IMG/VR virus record: IMGVR_UViG_3300046722_000050
Location: 1-35,849 of that record
Reading direction: 5' to 3' (one strand)
Length of the DNA stretch: 35,849 bases
Source: a virus
Under the pieces are notes generated by a model. It worked only from the letters and a program-made list of their open reading frames with translations. It ran no database searches and had not been told where the DNA came from. Made by a program: the position numbers and the translations under genes. Positions 4,626-34,219 of the stretch are shown piece after piece (positions within the stretch are counted from its first letter, which is position 1; the number at the start of each line of letters is the position of its first letter).

Positions 4626-4816
4626 GGCTCACCTACCTTCAGCGCCAGTTGGACTAACTGCTCACAGTCGCGGCATCGTTTCCGCTTAGGCAAGCCTGCG
4701 CTTTTCTTAGCGAACTCGAAGTGGCCGCACTCCATGATGTGCTTGTATGAGCCTTCATTGGGGCGGTTGTATCGCGTCGTCATCCACTCGCGCTTGACTA
4801 CCTTGCGGAAGATCAT
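4622..4816 (-). CDS. Small zinc-ribbon-like protein, 64 residues
   Basis: I take the start at MIFRKVVKREWM because its ATG overlaps the TGA of the upstream gene in an ATGA; a longer version starting 11 codons earlier would overlap that gene by 37 bp. The protein has MECGHFEF ... RCRDCEQ, that is C-x-H and C-x2-C, a minimal zinc ribbon. It ends in an ATGA overlap with the Cys-cluster gene. Small proteins of this kind are common in phage early regions; no specific function can be given. Confidence 0.7.
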   Translation of the reverse strand: MIFRKVVKREWMTTRYNRPNEGSYKHIMECGHFEFAKKSAGLPKRKRCRDCEQLVQLALKVGEP

Positions 4817-5100
4817 GGCTGCTCTGTCTTTCCCATGAGGCGCTTCCATAGGAAGTCGGCCACGTCTTTTGGATCGAAGTCTGACTTGCGGCTCACACAG
4901 AAGCCACTGGCGTAGCGGCTGGTTTGCCAGTCCCAGTGTTCGCTCCTAATGAGGACTGTGCGGACGCCACCCAACTCCATGATGGTGAACGTGCCGAAGC
5001 CATCGTAGTCCACTGACGCCTCAGTTTCCCATACTTCCCATGTCGTTACATTCGGGCCGCTCATGCCGCCCTCTGCTATTGCTATGTTGATTGTGCTCAT
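4813..5100 (-). CDS. Hypothetical 95-residue protein
   Basis: It starts MSTINIAIAEGGMSGPNV and has a beta-rich central part (TWEVWETEASVDYDGFGTFTIMELGG) and a helical end (DPKDVADFLWKRLMG). No catalytic motif is visible. It is the first gene after the 229-bp gap that holds palindrome P2 and the tRNA-like element; P2 and its adjoining GCCTCA hairpin lie just upstream of the start codon and could control it. The function is unknown. Confidence 0.65.
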   Translation of the reverse strand: MSTINIAIAEGGMSGPNVTTWEVWETEASVDYDGFGTFTIMELGGVRTVLIRSEHWDWQTSRYASGFCVSRKSDFDPKDVADFLWKRLMGKTEQP

Positions 5101-5143
5101 ATTTGCTCGTCGTTTCTAAGTGCCTCAGGATGAGGCGTTGCCC

Positions 5144-5169
5144 CAACTATCCTGAATTCAAGATAGTTG
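5144..5169. repeat. Palindrome P2
   Basis: CAACTATCCTGAA and TTCAAGATAGTTG form 13-nt arms around a GAATTC centre with one mismatch. A second small hairpin, GCCTCAGGATGAGGC (5122-5136), lies next to it, and the pair is repeated at 34190-34240 in reverse orientation. It is about 45 bases upstream of the 95-residue gene and about 20 bases 3' of the tRNA-like element. Confidence 0.8.
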
Positions 5170-5189
5170 AGAGATTTACCATCGAAAAA

Positions 5190-5265
5190 TGGAGTGCGCG
5201 GTCGGCGTTTACCCGACATCTGCGGCTCGCTGGCCGCTCATTCTAAAACCTTGAACTACGCGCAC
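5190..5265 (-). ncRNA. tRNA-like element with encoded CCA
   Basis: Read on the minus strand, 76 nt fold as a complete cloverleaf: acceptor GTGCGCG/CGCGCAC (7 bp, perfect), TA at positions 8-9, D stem GTTC/GAAT with loop AAGGTTTTA (contains GG), anticodon-arm stem GCGGC/GCCGC (5 bp), 4-nt variable region, T stem GTCGG/CCGAC with 7-nt loop GTAAACG, then T-CCA. The length, stem lengths and terminal CCA match a tRNA. The anticodon loop has only six bases (CAGCGA, no U33) and the T loop lacks TTC. It is therefore either a decayed tRNA or a tRNA mimic; I would not assign an amino acid. Confidence 0.55.
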
Positions 5266-5328
5266 AAGATGGGCAACCACTACGCAGGTTACCCAGTCGC
5301 GCACCGCGTTAGGTGAGACGCTACGCGG

Positions 5329-6117
5329 TTACTTGTTCTCTGGCTTCAATTCCTCGATGAGGAAGCCATAGATGACCTGCCTCACCTGTCGGCGCTGCTG
5401 TGGAGCGAACGCCTTCATGAACCTGTCCCACTTCTCGAGCACCTTGTCCTCGAATGACTTCTCAGCCTTCGCCTTCTTAGGCTTCGATGGTGCGCTCGCT
5501 GCGGCCTGCTTGAGCGATTTCTTCTTCTCGATGACCGCACCTAGTTGGCCCGCCTTAGCCGCCTTGACCGCCTGCTCCGCCTTGTGAGTGCTCACCTCAG
5601 CCTCCTTGGCTATGTGAGCGGCCACAGAGCCTTTCTTCCCATCGGCGCTAGGTGCGCCGAAACTGCCCTTCTTAGCCATGCGATCTTTGGCCTCGGCTTC
5701 CAGCTGTGGGAGCCTGATCTTCGCGACGAGAGCGACGCGCTGGTCGTCATTCAGATGGCGTCTGAATATGTTACGACTGAGAATCACCTGTGGTATCTCG
5801 TCGTCAGTGCCTTTGAATACTTCCATCGGCACCTGCTTGGCGTCAGTTAGGTCTAAGCCCAACTCCATCGCGATCATGTATCGGTTTCGGCCGTCGATGA
5901 TCGTGTCCTTAGCCTTGTTGACTAGGATGGGAACGCTAATCCCATGGGCCTCGATGTCGCCCTTCAATTCCCGCATTAGCTTGGCGGGTATGGTCGGGAA
6001 CATCTTCGCTATAGGGTGAATCTCCATCGCACTCGCGGTGGTCTTGCCCTCTTTTGCTGCCTGCTTGATAGCTGCCGCTCCAGCGGCCAGCTTATCTTTA
6101 TCTGCTTTGGTTGCCAT
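5329..6117 (-). CDS. ParB-like N-terminal domain protein (second ParB of the window)
   Basis: A 262-residue protein. Residues about 30-130 form a ParB/Srx-type domain: IHPIAKMFPTIPAKLMRELKGDIEAHG (split here as IHPIAKMFP and ELKGDIEAHG), PILVNKAKDTIIDGRNRYMIAMELG with the D-G-R-N-R box, then IPQVILSRNIFRRHLNDDQR, typical of phage ParB-like proteins. The C-terminal half is Lys/Ala-rich with a helix-turn-helix-like stretch (AHIAKEAEVSTHKAEQAVKAAKAG) and a final helical domain. Such proteins may bind DNA or hydrolyse nucleotides; a partition role needs a ParA partner, which is absent. The start follows GGAGGTAGCC. Confidence 0.8.
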   Translation of the reverse strand: MATKADKDKLAAGAAAIKQAAKEGKTTASAMEIHPIAKMFPTIPAKLMRELKGDIEAHGISVPILVNKAKDTIIDGRNRYMIAMELGLDLTDAKQVPMEVFKGTDDEIPQVILSRNIFRRHLNDDQRVALVAKIRLPQLEAEAKDRMAKKGSFGAPSADGKKGSVAAHIAKEAEVSTHKAEQAVKAAKAGQLGAVIEKKKSLKQAAASAPSKPKKAKAEKSFEDKVLEKWDRFMKAFAPQQRRQVRQVIYGFLIEELKPENK

Positions 6118-6133
6118 GTGGCTACCTCCTATG

Positions 6134-6298
6134 TTACTTAGTCCCTTCCGATGAAGGTGCGGCCTTGGGACTAGGCGACCGCATCTGAAATTGTTTGAAG
6201 CCGCATCTGATACACTCGCGGCCCGCGTTAGTGTCAGCGATGGTAAGCCAGCGCCACTTGTGGCCTAGCCACCGACATAGCCAGTTACTCCTTTTCAT
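6134..6298 (-). CDS. Small zinc-finger protein, DUF1660-like
   Basis: A 54-residue protein starting MKRSNWLCRWLGHKWRW; I prefer this ATG to one 16 codons upstream because it follows AAAAGGAG and overlaps the upstream gene by only 14 bp. C-x4-GHKW ... GRECIRCGF resembles the small prophage zinc-binding family DUF1660 (C-x(n)-GH-x-W and C-x2-CG). The tail is Ser/Pro-rich. It is probably a zinc-stabilised micro-protein of unknown target. Confidence 0.65.
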   Translation of the reverse strand: MKRSNWLCRWLGHKWRWLTIADTNAGRECIRCGFKQFQMRSPSPKAAPSSEGTK

Positions 6299-12328: not shown

Positions 12329-12447
12329 GTGGAGCTTGATTGCTCCACGCTGACCGCCGTGACGATCAGCGTGGAACACCCTCGGGTTGCCCCGAGGATG
12401 CCCGCCTTAGTGCTTTTGGGTCGTGGGCTGACTGATCGTCCACGACC
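12329..12447. promoter_or_regulatory. Leader with four hairpins, two of them mutually exclusive
   Basis: Stems: GTGGAGC/GCTCCAC (12329-12348), CCACGCTGA/TCAGCGTGG (12345-12374), CCTCGGG/CCCGAGG (12380-12397) and GGTCGTGG/CCACGACC (12419-12447). The first two share bases 12345-12348, so they cannot form together. This is the architecture of an attenuator or switch, located in the leader of the 139-residue gene. No ligand class is recognised. Confidence 0.5.
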
Positions 12448-14474: not shown

Positions 14475-14506
14475 CGCCAATGAACTTGAATTCAAGTTAG
14501 TTGGCG
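14475..14506. repeat. Palindrome P3
   Basis: Arms CGCCAATGAACTTGAA and TTCAAGTTAGTTGGCG, 16 nt each, two mismatches, centred on GAATTC. As in P1, the stop codon of the upstream gene (GCC AAC TAA) lies inside one arm. A short run GAGGCACTTACGAATATG in the minus strand follows, and is shared with the leader after P2. Confidence 0.8.
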
Positions 14507-15414
14507 CTTCCATTGTGTGAGTTGGCCTCCTTTAGATGCTCGGGCTTGAAGGTTTCAGCGCGGTATGCCCACAGGACGCTCCAATCTACGCCCTCAGTCA
14601 CGTGTGCCTGTAGGTGCGCTATCTCGTCGTGCTGGCGGTTGATGTAGTAGCCCGCCCATCGTTTGCCTAGGTGGTATTTTTTGTAGGCACACAGGGTAGT
14701 CTCCATGTTCCACATGTTATTCGCTGGGTCGAGCGCCTTGAGGTCGCGCAGGCCCGCGTCCAGCGACACCTGTAGCATCTTCATGTCGGTCTGTTTGATC
14801 TGATGACCGTCCTCATGGTTGCTTAGATCGGGCCTGCCTATCGCCAGCGCTAGTCCGTTGCGGCATGACTGAGCCTCACGCACGTTCATCGTGGGCGGTT
14901 CCATCGGGAAGCCCGTGACCACATGGACAGCCTCGGTGTAAAGCCACAGGCCGAAACGTCCCATCTGAAACCACTGTGAGGCGTCCTTGCTGACTACGTC
15001 ATAGGTGGCGAGCGGGTCGCGTGGCACTTCTCTCGATCGCATCCACATCTCCTGGCTGAGCGGGCGCACCGCGTCCGCGTAGGAGCGTAGCATCTGAACC
15101 CACTGATTGCGGGAGCGCACCCATCGGCGGTCAGTCTGGAACAAGACCTTTTCGCGGTTGAGTTTCCACCATCGCGCCGCCCTATCGAAGTCAACGTTTT
15201 CCCAGTCCGGAAACTCGTTGTAGATGTAGAACGTGGTCGCGCCGCAGTAACACGTTGAGTAGATGTAAGCCAGCCAGTAGCGTTGCTCCGTGTTAAGCTC
15301 GTAGCGTTCGCAGATGTAACGAAGCATTGAGTAGCTAGGGTCAACGTCACCTATGGCCCGACTGTAGGTGTGGTAGTCCACATAGCTCATCTTGTCGCTG
15401 TAACTAGCCCACAT
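14497..15414 (-). CDS. Alpha-glutamyl/putrescinyl-thymine pyrophosphorylase-type protein (amino acid:DNA transferase family)
   Basis: A 305-residue protein. The start MWASYSDKMSYVDYHTYSRA overlaps the end of the amidotransferase gene by 11 bp and follows AGGGACG; an upstream in-frame extension of 34 codons is unlikely. The all-helical, Trp/Tyr-rich pattern PSYSMLRYICERYELNTEQR, YWLAYIYSTCYCGATTFYIY, EFPDWENVDFDRAARWWKLN, DRRWVRSRNQW is what I know from the aGPT-Pplase/ADDT clade, whose members replace the phosphorylated hydroxymethyl of thymine in DNA with an amine or amino acid (putrescine, glutamate, serine or glycine in known phages). Recognised from sequence pattern only. Here the nucleophile is unknown. 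It lies between a kinase and a glutamine amidotransferase. Confidence 0.65.
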   Translation of the reverse strand: MWASYSDKMSYVDYHTYSRAIGDVDPSYSMLRYICERYELNTEQRYWLAYIYSTCYCGATTFYIYNEFPDWENVDFDRAARWWKLNREKVLFQTDRRWVRSRNQWVQMLRSYADAVRPLSQEMWMRSREVPRDPLATYDVVSKDASQWFQMGRFGLWLYTEAVHVVTGFPMEPPTMNVREAQSCRNGLALAIGRPDLSNHEDGHQIKQTDMKMLQVSLDAGLRDLKALDPANNMWNMETTLCAYKKYHLGKRWAGYYINRQHDEIAHLQAHVTEGVDWSVLWAYRAETFKPEHLKEANSHNGSAN

Positions 15415-16042
15415 GGTAGGTCGTCCCTGCTTCGATGGACTTAGGCAGCTTGAAGCCTGAGCGCCTGAATATGTCCTGTGTTGAGCCGATGTAGTGGGCG
15501 CTGGCCTCGCGCACATGGTAGAGCGGGCGCTGGCGATTGCGGAGCGCCAGTAGCTCGCCGTGGTAGAGCATGACGCCCGCGAAGCTAAACGTGCCTAGCC
15601 TAACCCACTGCTCCCAGTCCTCGCCGTCTAACACCTTGCGCACGAAGATTTCTCCATCGTTATCCGTCTCGGGCTTGAAGCCGAACTCCTTGCCCCACTG
15701 CTCCTTAGTGGTCATACGGATGACGCCATTGAACGCCATAGCTACGTCACCTATGACGATGGGCTGGTTAGCGTCATCGTCGTGCCAGTCGCCGCTGGTC
15801 GAGTAACGGCAATGCGCGATGAGGCTTAGATGGCGGCCCACATACTCGAGAGCGAGCGCGGCCAGATACTCTCGCGCCTGCTCGCGAATTAGGAACTTGT
15901 CGCACCCGAGCGCGCCATCCGCATGCACGTGCGCGACTCCGAACGAGTGCAGCCCGCGTATCTTACTCGCATCGAAAAGCGCAAGCAGCCGCGCAGCCGC
16001 TCGCTCGCCGCCCTTGCCTGAGTAACCTATGACCGCGCACAT
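15404..16042 (-). CDS. Stand-alone class II glutamine amidotransferase
   Basis: A 212-residue Ntn-hydrolase-type GATase: Met removal would expose Cys2 of MCAVIGYSGKGG as the nucleophile. Other family marks are HCRYSTSGD (Arg79), ANQP (92-94), FNGVIRM (Asn105-Gly106), TDNDGE (127-131) and LRNRQRPLY. It liberates ammonia from glutamine. Unlike asparagine synthetase or GlmS, no synthetase domain is fused, so the ammonia must go to a partner, most likely a cassette neighbour that aminates a base or activates an amino acid. It overlaps the GNAT gene by 16 bp and the transferase gene by 11 bp. CG-rich palindromic patches inside it (about 15838-15930) resemble the R repeat weakly. Confidence 0.8.
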   Translation of the reverse strand: MCAVIGYSGKGGERAAARLLALFDASKIRGLHSFGVAHVHADGALGCDKFLIREQAREYLAALALEYVGRHLSLIAHCRYSTSGDWHDDDANQPIVIGDVAMAFNGVIRMTTKEQWGKEFGFKPETDNDGEIFVRKVLDGEDWEQWVRLGTFSFAGVMLYHGELLALRNRQRPLYHVREASAHYIGSTQDIFRRSGFKLPKSIEAGTTYHVG

Positions 16043-16665: not shown

Positions 16666-16810
16666 GGGCGAGCGCGTCTGTTTCCTAAACGCGAGAGCGC
16701 GTAGAGCGCGAATATCGCGAGCGTGAGTAACGCGGATGCATACGCCCACTCGAATACGCGAGTGACGTGCACGCGAGCGAGTCGCTCGAGCGCGTTAGGA
16801 ATTAGCTCCC
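16629..16810. repeat. CG-rich palindromic repeat R3 at the TET/GNAT junction
   Basis: Two blocks: 16629-16668 (GCTCGATCGAG, GCATGTGTGCACGC, ATGGG), nearly identical to the right end of R1 at 30751-30781, and 16757-16810 (in minus orientation GCTAATTCCTAACGCGCTCG), matching R2 at 8560-8580. The last codons of the dioxygenase gene (Ala-Asn-Ser-stop) and the first codons of the GNAT gene are encoded inside the two blocks. The 129-bp gap between the stop and start codons is thus filled by repeat sequence. Confidence 0.55.
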
Positions 16811-17880
16811 TTGGATACATGGCTCTCGATGGGAGGACGTCTGAGCGCCTTAGCGCGGGCGAGTTCTTCATCGGCGCTGCCACAGCGCTGCATCTTCTCG
16901 CGATAGTAGAACACCAGCGATACCCGCTCAAACATCCCATGGTTGCCTTTCATGGGCGTGTTACCGTGCCACTCATGCACGTCCGCACAGAGGACACAGC
17001 CAGTCCTCATGTCTAACGCCACGCGATACTTAGGGAACACGAAGTAGCAGCCCTCGTAGCGGCCACGCCTGAGGCACGACATGACGCCGAAGCCCTCCTT
17101 CAAGTCGCCCACGTCCTTATGCACCGCCGTCTGGAAGTTGCGGTTGACGGTCACTGTGGTGAAGCAGGTGTCCGCGATGTAGAAGTCGGCGCTGGTGGCG
17201 CGGATTAGATCAGACTGCGCTAGGTAGCGGTCAGGGACTAAGGCCGCGAACTCCCTGTCTATCCGCTGGATGAAGGGCATGACAGCCGCAAAGCGCCTCG
17301 GGTGCGCTAGGTTGTAGGCAGTCAGGCGACAGTAGGGAAAGCGCGGATTCCTATCGAAGAAGCCCACTATGCCGCTGTTGACTAGCTTGGCGACGTTCGT
17401 GTTACTCAGTGTGCCATCGTGTTTGATAGCCTGCGCTCTCGTCGGGCTGACCAGCTTGATGCCTATGCCGCCTCGCTCCTTGGCGATCTTCACTAGCTCC
17501 TCCTCTGAGTTGATCTGCCCTGCCGCGTAGCCACGGTTGCCAGTGGGGTTGGCCGCGTCCTTCCATACAGGGAAGGCCGTTAGGCAGTCGGCCTCCTCTA
17601 TGACGTTCTGGCGAAACCTGCACAGCAACGAGCCATCGGGCTTGTAAATGTCCACGTCATCGGTGTGGAGCGTATCGTAGGCATCCTCGCCAAGTAGATG
17701 ACCAGCAAGAGCGTCGGTCTGCTCGTCGTTGAGCGCGTTGCGTTTCAATCGCACGACCTTGGGCGGTGCCTCAGTCTTGTGGCGATAGTCGAGTTTAAGC
17801 GACGGTGGTAGCTCGGTGCTCCGTGGTATGCTTAGCGTGGCCATTGGTGCGTTTGGTTTGTAGTTGGCTGAATGTAGCAT
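16795..17880 (-). CDS. TET/JBP-type 2-oxoglutarate/Fe(II) dioxygenase
   Basis: A 361-residue protein. The C-terminal part carries the TET/JBP signature: RNFQTAVHKDVGDLKEGFGV (HxD at H254/D256), GRYEGCYFVFPKYRVALDMR, GCVLCADVHEWHGNTP (distal His H302 or H305) and ERVSLVFYYREKM (2-oxoglutarate-binding Arg319). This is close to trypanosome JBP, which hydroxylates the methyl of thymine in DNA, and to TET, which oxidises 5-methylcytosine. The N-terminal about 200 residues include SDLIRATSADFYIADTCF, typical of phage members. The start may be the second Met (MATLSIPR, residue 13). It overlaps the Gp88-like gene by 50-86 bp and ends in repeat R3. I infer it supplies 5-hydroxymethyl-pyrimidine for the kinase/transferase pair downstream. 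Confidence 0.85.
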   Translation of the reverse strand: MLHSANYKPNAPMATLSIPRSTELPPSLKLDYRHKTEAPPKVVRLKRNALNDEQTDALAGHLLGEDAYDTLHTDDVDIYKPDGSLLCRFRQNVIEEADCLTAFPVWKDAANPTGNRGYAAGQINSEEELVKIAKERGGIGIKLVSPTRAQAIKHDGTLSNTNVAKLVNSGIVGFFDRNPRFPYCRLTAYNLAHPRRFAAVMPFIQRIDREFAALVPDRYLAQSDLIRATSADFYIADTCFTTVTVNRNFQTAVHKDVGDLKEGFGVMSCLRRGRYEGCYFVFPKYRVALDMRTGCVLCADVHEWHGNTPMKGNHGMFERVSLVFYYREKMQRCGSADEELARAKALRRPPIESHVSKGANS

Positions 17881-25300: not shown

Positions 25301-25356
25301 ATGTTTCTCACCTCCTTTGGTCTTGGGTTGTAAGTGGTTGGCGACGAGTGACTTTA

Positions 25357-25380
25357 AGCTATCTTGAATTCAAGTTAGTT
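25357..25380. repeat. Palindrome P4
   Basis: CTATCTTGAA and TTCAAGTTAG around the GAATTC centre, with weaker outer bases (A/T, G/T), a shorter copy of the family. It begins 7 bases after the amidase stop codon and precedes the 57-residue membrane gene, so it separates the amidase message from the J operon. Confidence 0.7.
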
Positions 25381-25386
25381 GAGAGG

Positions 25387-29385: not shown

Positions 29386-29411
29386 CAACTAACATGAAAT
29401 CAGGATAGTTG
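29386..29411. repeat. Palindrome P5 over the gpV ribosome site
   Basis: CAACTAACATGAA and ATCAGGATAGTTG, the most degenerate family member (three mismatches). In the minus transcript its 3' arm GTTAGTTG runs straight into GAGCACGCTAATGG, so pairing of the arm could hide the gpV ribosome site. It abuts repeat copy B on the other side. Confidence 0.7.
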
Positions 29412-29550: not shown

Positions 29551-30695
29551 TATCCTTGAAGGCATTTGCGAATTTGTAGCTCTGTCGTGTATTCGGGAGC
29601 GACCTTGTGGTGCGCGGTCTCCACGAACCATTTACCATCGAACTGCCCGCAGCCGACCAGCATAAACGTTTGGCCAGCGGCTACGAGCGGGTTGCCTATC
29701 GAAAGCTCAGCGCGGCACTGGTCTTTCTTTTTGTTCTTGTCCCTCACATGGGACTTTGCCTTGAGGTCTGCGCCCGCGTCGTCCTTGTTGAAGCTACCCA
29801 CTAGCTCCTCAGTGCGGGCAGAACCACCGTTGCCGCCGCCATCGCCGCCTCCATCCTCCGACTCTGTGTCGGTGTCCACGTTCTCCTTGTCCTCAGTGCT
29901 CTCGGGTAGCTCCTCCACCTCAGGCGCTGTGAACTTCCCTTGGCTAGTCCAGCCGTCGCCTAGGTTGGCGTGACTGATCTTAGCGCCCTTAGTCGTGTCG
30001 GTAATCATCGTCACGAAGTGAGCGCCACTGAGCCGATAGGACGCGCCTGTCATGGCGACCGCCGTGTTACCGTAGAGCAACGTGAACGATGGCGCGGCTT
30101 CCTCCATCTTCTGCTCATCGAACACGATGATTTTCCCATTCTTGATTTTGACCGCGAGCTTAGCGTCGTTGCAGCGCTTCATGAGGAAACTGAGGCTGCT
30201 CTCCGCGTGCATCTCTGTGCGCGTGTAACGCGGGTTGTTGCCCGCCTGCCAGTCGAGCGTCATGTTGTTCTCGCCTGCTATCTGATTGGCTATGTCCTGT
30301 AGGCTTGTGCCATCCCATCCACGCGTCTCGGTGCTGCCTTTCAAGCGCACATCGGTAGGGATGGACGTTCCTTTGATGGACACCTTGTGGTCAGGTAGCA
30401 GGAACTCGACGCTGTCTATCCAGAACTTCCCACAGTCGAGCTTGATCTGACTGCCTATGGGTGAGAACCATCGCTCAGCTATGATGGACGCTTGGAAGGT
30501 AGCGCCCTTCTTAGGCATCCAAGTGCTGATGAATTTACCATCGCGGTCAGCTAGCTCTAGGTTGAAGTCATCGGCCTTCTTCCCATCGCAGTTGTCCTCG
30601 TAGAGCGCCGTGATGAGATAGGGCGCTAACTGACTTCCGTAGCTCTGCCCATCGAGGCTAATGTCCACATGGGCCGCTCTGACTTGACCTAGCAT
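29547..30695 (-). CDS. D: Tail hub protein D (late-control-D type)
   Basis: A 382-residue protein; I start at MLGQVRAAHVDISLD because GGGAGGCG precedes this ATG (Met5 of the longer frame). It matches the P2 gpD hub: ALYEDNCDGKKADDFNLELA, FWIDSVEFLLPDHKVSIKGT, LQDIANQIAGENNMTLDWQA, SSLSFLMKRCNDAKLAVKIK. An unusual Glu/Asp/Gly-rich insert (about 285-315; ESTEDKENVDTDTESEDGGG) is inserted near the C-terminus. D is a hub adaptor between tail tube and spike; it is also needed for late transcription only in older naming. Confidence 0.9.
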   Translation of the reverse strand: MLGQVRAAHVDISLDGQSYGSQLAPYLITALYEDNCDGKKADDFNLELADRDGKFISTWMPKKGATFQASIIAERWFSPIGSQIKLDCGKFWIDSVEFLLPDHKVSIKGTSIPTDVRLKGSTETRGWDGTSLQDIANQIAGENNMTLDWQAGNNPRYTRTEMHAESSLSFLMKRCNDAKLAVKIKNGKIIVFDEQKMEEAAPSFTLLYGNTAVAMTGASYRLSGAHFVTMITDTTKGAKISHANLGDGWTSQGKFTAPEVEELPESTEDKENVDTDTESEDGGGDGGGNGGSARTEELVGSFNKDDAGADLKAKSHVRDKNKKKDQCRAELSIGNPLVAAGQTFMLVGCGQFDGKWFVETAHHKVAPEYTTELQIRKCLQGY

Positions 30696-34189: not shown

Positions 34190-34219
34190 CCCAACTAACT
34201 TGAATTCAAGATAGTTGGG
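34190..34219. repeat. Palindrome P6
   Basis: CCCAACTAACTTGAA and TTCAAGATAGTTGGG, 15-nt arms with one mismatch, the longest good copy. It adjoins GCCTCAGGTTGAGGC (34224-34238), the same hairpin as near P2 but in reversed order, so the P2 and P6 modules are inverted copies of each other. Confidence 0.85.

Follow-up and report, generated by a model that had tools for sequence, protein, structure and literature searches.

Is a cloverleaf of tRNA size, which ends in an encoded CCA and lies in a gap between phage genes, a relative of tRNA when its anticodon and T loops do not read as those of a tRNA, and what could such an RNA be kept for? The question is raised by a 76-nt element in a window of 35,849 bases (the window being the whole stretch of DNA that was analysed and also the whole virus record IMGVR_UViG_3300046722_000050 of IMG/VR). 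It belongs to a contractile-tail phage in which sheath, baseplate and tail proteins, an ERF annealing protein and a helicase are encoded. According to our gene list, non-coding DNA makes up 7.7% of the window, and the gap holding the element is the fourth longest among the 16 gaps of at least 60 nt; the element itself is wholly non-coding. Elsewhere in the window, a non-coding gap holds a strong hairpin of 12–13 pairs with a short loop (12344–12375). The coordinates of the locus are collected in Table 1.

Table 1. Features of the locus, with positions counted from the first base of the window.
Feature	Position	Strand	Remarks
tRNA-like cloverleaf	5190..5265	(-)	76 nt, the encoded CCA included; from G1 (5265) to A76 (5190)
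Acceptor stem, 5' half	5259..5265	(-)	GTGCGCG; partner 5194-5200
D arm	5240..5256	(-)	GTTC-AAGGTTTTA-GAAT; 4 pairs, 9-nt loop, GG beside A15
Anticodon-position arm	5222..5237	(-)	GCGGC-CAGCGA-GCCGC; 5 pairs, 6-nt loop, no U33
T-position arm	5201..5217	(-)	GTCGG-GTAAACG-CCGAC; 5 pairs; T55, R57, A58 kept; T54, C56, Y60 lost
Acceptor stem, 3' half	5194..5200	(-)	CGCGCAC, then U73 (5193) and CCA (5190-5192)
Second GTGCGCG	5298..5304	(-)	Rival partner of the acceptor 3' half when the transcript is longer
Gap	5101..5328	(-)	228 nt; holds the element, hairpins and palindrome
ParB-like gene	5329..6117	(-)	262 aa; upstream; stop codon 63 nt before G1
Palindrome	5144..5169	(-)	26 bp; downstream of the element, upstream of gene 4813-5100

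The original prediction described, giving no strand, a 76-nt cloverleaf with arms of 7, 4, 5 and 5 pairs and a T-CCA end, located between the ParB-like gene and the palindrome, and all of this is found on the minus strand, which is also the strand of the neighbouring genes. Reading from 5265 to 5190, the acceptor stem is followed by TA at positions 8–9 and by the D arm with GG in its loop, both as predicted; GA leads to the anticodon-position arm, AGAT to the T-position arm, and the 3' half of the acceptor stem runs into T and CCA. All 21 of the 21 stem pairs form (7 in the acceptor stem, 4 in the D arm with one G-U among them, 5 in the anticodon arm and 5 in the T arm), which gives the four-arm 7/4/5/5 cloverleaf of a tRNA. 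The minimum free energy (MFE) fold of the 76 nt coincides with the centroid and with the cloverleaf, at −29.1 kcal/mol. Taken alone, the z-score of this fold is modest (−1.97, with 8 of 200 shuffles equally stable), and it is the shape that is rare. On the plus strand, the same positions fold into a single long hairpin, the cloverleaf being confined to the minus strand.

The six-base anticodon loop without U33 and the T loop GTAAACG, also read from the letters beforehand, are borne out by both sequence and fold. The anticodon-position loop, CAGCGA, lacks the seven nucleotides and the U33 of a tRNA, and the T loop departs from TTCRANY by having G54, A56 and G60 in place of T54, C56 and Y60. In the elbow of a normal tRNA, T54-A58 and G19-C56 contacts are made; these cannot form as usual here because T54, C56 and Y60 are lost. 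Moreover, the GG of the D loop (G18-G19) directly abuts A15 with no base between, which is an unusual spacing, and the D stem is separated from the anticodon stem by two bases (GA) instead of one. The residues that have been kept are U8, A14, R15, GG, A21, Y48, T55, R57, A58 and the G53-C61 pair; the D-domain core (U8, A14, R15, G18 G19, A21) is complete and accompanied by Y48. At the acceptor end, U73, G1-C72 and G3-C70 are present, 2-71 is U-A and C35 C36 are absent, which matches only in part the bacterial glycine identity set, as given in the consulted portion of PMC9976931. Global alignment to 39 Chloroflexi tRNAs gave the best score for tRNA-Asp (15.5), followed by Val, with Gly in fourth place (12.5), and the maximum for 200 shuffles aligned in the same way was 12.5. 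We claim no isotype for the element, in which putative identity elements are partly present.

Could this shape have arisen by chance? The element is the one perfect 7/4/5/5 cloverleaf on both strands of the window. Random DNA with the composition of the window, generated by a first-order Markov model and thus distinct from real genomes, contained 62 perfect starts in 166 Mb of both strands, 1 of them with NCCA; the chance expectation per window is 0.013 perfect cloverleafs, and 0.0002 with CCA. The same scan recovered a tRNA-Arg in contig L024 and found no other perfect cloverleaf in the sequences L001–L021, the positive in L002 being the window itself. Tested against 21 tRNA signature residues, the element has 17, versus a mean of 7.3 and a maximum of 13 in 99 random perfect cloverleafs, on a list of conserved tRNA positions that was drawn up after the element had been seen. 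For this reason, more weight is given to a covariance model, R1, built from 30 of 38 short tRNA rows (8 left out) of three Chloroflexi MAGs and including one Cys tRNA twice via overlapping loci. In an unfiltered run of R1 over the window, the element ranked first, at full length and with exact ends (28.3 bits, E 2.2e-5), the second-best match having 13.4 bits; the best match in 57.5 kb of kin loci had 13.4 bits as well. On 11 tRNA-bearing loci, where several of the matches are sequences used to build the model, 17 ordinary type-I matches scored 63.8–83.4 bits; the scores of two longer matches were 39.8 and 35.3 bits. The rank of the element, together with its score relative to those of the type-I matches, therefore indicates an RNA that is related to tRNA and very divergent.

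The tRNA finders agree only in part. At default settings, the element was missed by both ARAGORN and Rfam. Rfam gave no match over the region at E up to 10, and RF00005 gave none over the whole record, its gathering cut-off of 29 bits not being reached; the 28.3 bits of R1 are on that model's own scale. ARAGORN relaxed to 95% or 90% reports this place alone, with the anticodon read only as 'gc', and at 80% it reports 30 places in the window, so this last level is taken as noise. Neither the rest of the window nor the 57.5 kb of kin loci that were scanned yielded another tRNA candidate. Genes of this kind, just below the ARAGORN threshold and missed by Rfam, are dropped by the default finders, and for this reason gaps in phage genomes may conceal more of them. 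Considering the rarity of the cloverleaf, the ARAGORN report at 95% and the R1 match, a relationship to tRNA explains the element, and chance does not; judged from its sequence, it is real, tRNA-related and non-canonical.

No homologue of the element was found in any sequence searched. Searches with the ParB-like protein against viral contigs, phages and genome contigs led to none; one contig (L001) matches this protein over its first 44 residues only and matches no other gene of the window. The helicase search returned the same phage only, neither the 95-aa neighbour protein nor a megablast of 25 kb opened a route to a homologue, and blastn of the gap gave short pieces only (best E 0.1). Neither half of the element, written as a degenerate pattern, had any match (0 each), and the exact pattern of the 5' half had one, in unrelated DNA without a cloverleaf (L008). 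In the kin contigs found via the palindrome, the region is not covered or the element is absent; L018–L020 have only the palindrome pattern in common and no protein. Two further records hold continuations of this phage, one stopping at 4648 (L009) and one starting at 29837 (L014), and neither reaches the element. The IMG/VR records L009/L021 and L014 extend the phage by about 12.9 kb to the left and 2.8 kb to the right of the window. A relative with about 77–81% DNA identity (L012) covers only 29–34 kb.

Several features of the surroundings deserve attention in their own right. A palindrome around TTGAATTCAA is present in six copies (1624–1649, 5144–5169, 14478–14503, 25356–25381, 29386–29411 and 34192–34217), none being expected, and it is also found in the kin contigs L011, L013 and L015. 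About 10–20 nt after several copies, some of them near a start codon, there is GAGGCACTTA or a like motif, an arrangement that suggests a phage operator/promoter unit; the two searched as a single-string pattern gave 0 matches, the assumed spacing being wrong. The copy at 5144–5169 is possibly an operator/promoter element of gene 4813–5100. Three Chloroflexi MAGs have a similar palindrome upstream of genes (L022 4440–4465, L023 5894–5919, L024 5055–5080), which could hint at the host or at a shared regulator. The minus strand also encodes a queuine tRNA-ribosyltransferase-like (TGT-like) protein (16795–17880) and a glutamine-amidotransferase-like protein (15404–16042), possibly for 7-deazaguanine DNA modification; action of the first protein on the element was considered and dropped, its loop having no UGU.

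Since 4800–6200 shows no pattern of a sigma-70 promoter, the likeliest source of the RNA would be read-through from the ParB-like gene. The arms at the anticodon and T positions remain stable in 16 of 16 transcript windows (mean pair probability of at least 0.98), and the acceptor helix depends on the start, with probabilities of 0.91–0.99 for transcripts from 5300 or 5275, 0.39–0.78 from 5400 and 0.05–0.18 from 5328, this last start giving 0.03–0.11 for the D arm. In the MFE fold of the whole gap (z −4.57), it is the second GTGCGCG that pairs, and the cloverleaf and this alternative are 1.2 kcal/mol apart. The duplicated GTGCGCG is not read as a designed switch because the 7-mer is common in the genome, with 15 copies in the window versus 15.6 expected.

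With a rough probability of 0.42, and thus tentatively, we think that the element is a tRNA-derived, non-decoding RNA of the ParB-like 3' UTR, which RNase P releases and which is retained because of its acceptor/T-arm/CCA end. It would be transcribed within the 3' UTR of the ParB-like mRNA, and host RNase P would cut at G1. The sequence has several features of an RNase P substrate (G1-C72, U at −1, encoded CCA and a 12-bp acceptor/T stack), and such processing would fit what has been retained. RNase P recognises its substrates through a surface that includes the T loop, which is altered in the element, and this counts against release by RNase P. Having lost U33, a seven-base anticodon loop and the T54-A58 and G19-C56 contacts, the RNA would be excluded from translation, and it would persist by virtue of an acceptor/T-arm/CCA half that still serves host enzymes as a tRNA end. 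Directly, the cut would punctuate the mRNA by setting a defined 3' end after the ParB-like gene and before the next unit, and the free tRNA mimic would be either a by-product or the purpose. Besides tRNA-like structures, RNase P cuts phage RNAs, intergenic RNAs and mRNAs (PMC11143913, in the sections available). We also count against this explanation the low acceptor helix probability from 5328, the low R1 score, the RF00005 miss, the lack of a homologue in the sequences searched and that of a sigma-70 promoter in 4800–6200.

The main rival of a useful tRNA mimic is a pseudogene, a phage-borne tRNA gene in early decay with no present function, which we regard as possible and rather doubtful. 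It would account for the loss of U33, T54, C56 and Y60, for an anticodon loop one base short and for a single copy with no homologue found, and phage tRNA pseudogenes are known, as in XacN1 (PMC5852040, in part). However, none of the 21 pairs is broken and 4 of the 17 loop signature positions are lost, a pattern with a probability of about 0.007 under equal neutral rates and of 0.13 at 7% divergence, both estimates presupposing a canonical ancestor. Decay is disfavoured because the stems are intact while loop positions have been lost, and constraint on the stems appears favoured over neutral decay, without proof. The relationship to tRNA is upheld by ARAGORN at 95%, the signature, the alignment and R1. 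Among the readings first offered for this locus, the decayed tRNA loses ground with the intact pairs, a processing or primer element would agree with the features retained for RNase P, and a decoy for anticodon nucleases is unlikely because the anticodon loop is precisely the part that is not tRNA-like.

It is improbable, in our opinion, that no cloverleaf forms in the cell and that the gap forms a more extensive 3' UTR structure or one resembling a terminator, or has a DNA-level role near the palindrome. The whole-gap z-score with its alternative MFE and the weak acceptor helix for starts at 5328 speak for this, but only 1.2 kcal/mol lies between the two folds, and the tRNA-type residues would be left unexplained. 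A role as decoy for enzymes attacking or modifying the acceptor/CCA end of tRNA, such as Cas12a3 or CCA-directed toxins, is quite unlikely. In Cas12a3, recognition is by the T-arm backbone, acceptor stem and CCA, and the removal of loops is tolerated (PMC12851939, available passages), and exactly this part is retained here; a precedent is a phage tRNA proposed as decoy or supplement (PMC13096335, available passages). Nevertheless, there is one copy only, and a sponge would need high expression, which sits poorly with the promoter search. More doubtful again is the narrower idea of a dedicated non-decoding mimic, with only the acceptor/T-arm/CCA identity left, that would soak up or block enzymes destroying or modifying tRNA 3' ends, useless in translation and invisible to anticodon nucleases. 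It is very unlikely, in our view, that the element is a functional phage tRNA, unusual in its loops and resistant to anticodon nucleases: phage tRNAs do bear anticodon-loop changes at nuclease sites, predicted to evade these enzymes (PMC10264068, as far as available), but a six-base loop without U33 leaves no readable anticodon (the 'gc' of ARAGORN), T54 and C56 are lost and the glycine identity is partial. Least probable of all is that the element arose by chance, or that a normal tRNA was misassembled. Although 5190–5265 is covered by one metagenomic record and no second one, the chance expectation and the R1 score argue against the former, and at least four separate departures would all have to be errors for the latter.

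If the non-decoding tRNA-derived RNA that we prefer is indeed produced and retained, it would present the shape of an entire tRNA without the decoding role, as a natural test of the features read by RNase P, CCA enzymes and tRNA-targeting defences. In the open PMC literature, as far as its texts were available, we found no description of such a tRNA mimic from a phage. With bacterial type-I tRNA (RF00005) the element shares the 7/4/5/5 stems, the 76 nt, U8, A14, R15, GG, A21, Y48, T55, R57, A58, G53-C61 and the encoded CCA, whereas it has a 6-nt anticodon loop, no U33, T54, C56 or Y60, GG right after A15 and no RF00005 match. Compared with bacterial tRNA-Gly, it has U73, G1-C72, G3-C70 and a D arm near that of Chloroflexi tRNA-Gly, but U2-A71 and no C35 C36, and its nearest panel member is Asp. 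Like phage tRNAs and their pseudogenes, it is a tRNA-related gene in a phage; the XacN1 pseudogene, however, sits in a large phage tRNA set (PMC5852040, in part), whereas the element is a lone copy. With the tRNA-like structures processed by RNase P it has in common its place in a probable between-gene transcript, while the examples given in the sections available of PMC11143913 include pseudoknotted plant-virus ends and antisense RNAs, and the element is a full four-arm cloverleaf. We therefore take it, as a predicted RNA, to extend the known phage tRNAs and tRNA-like RNAs.
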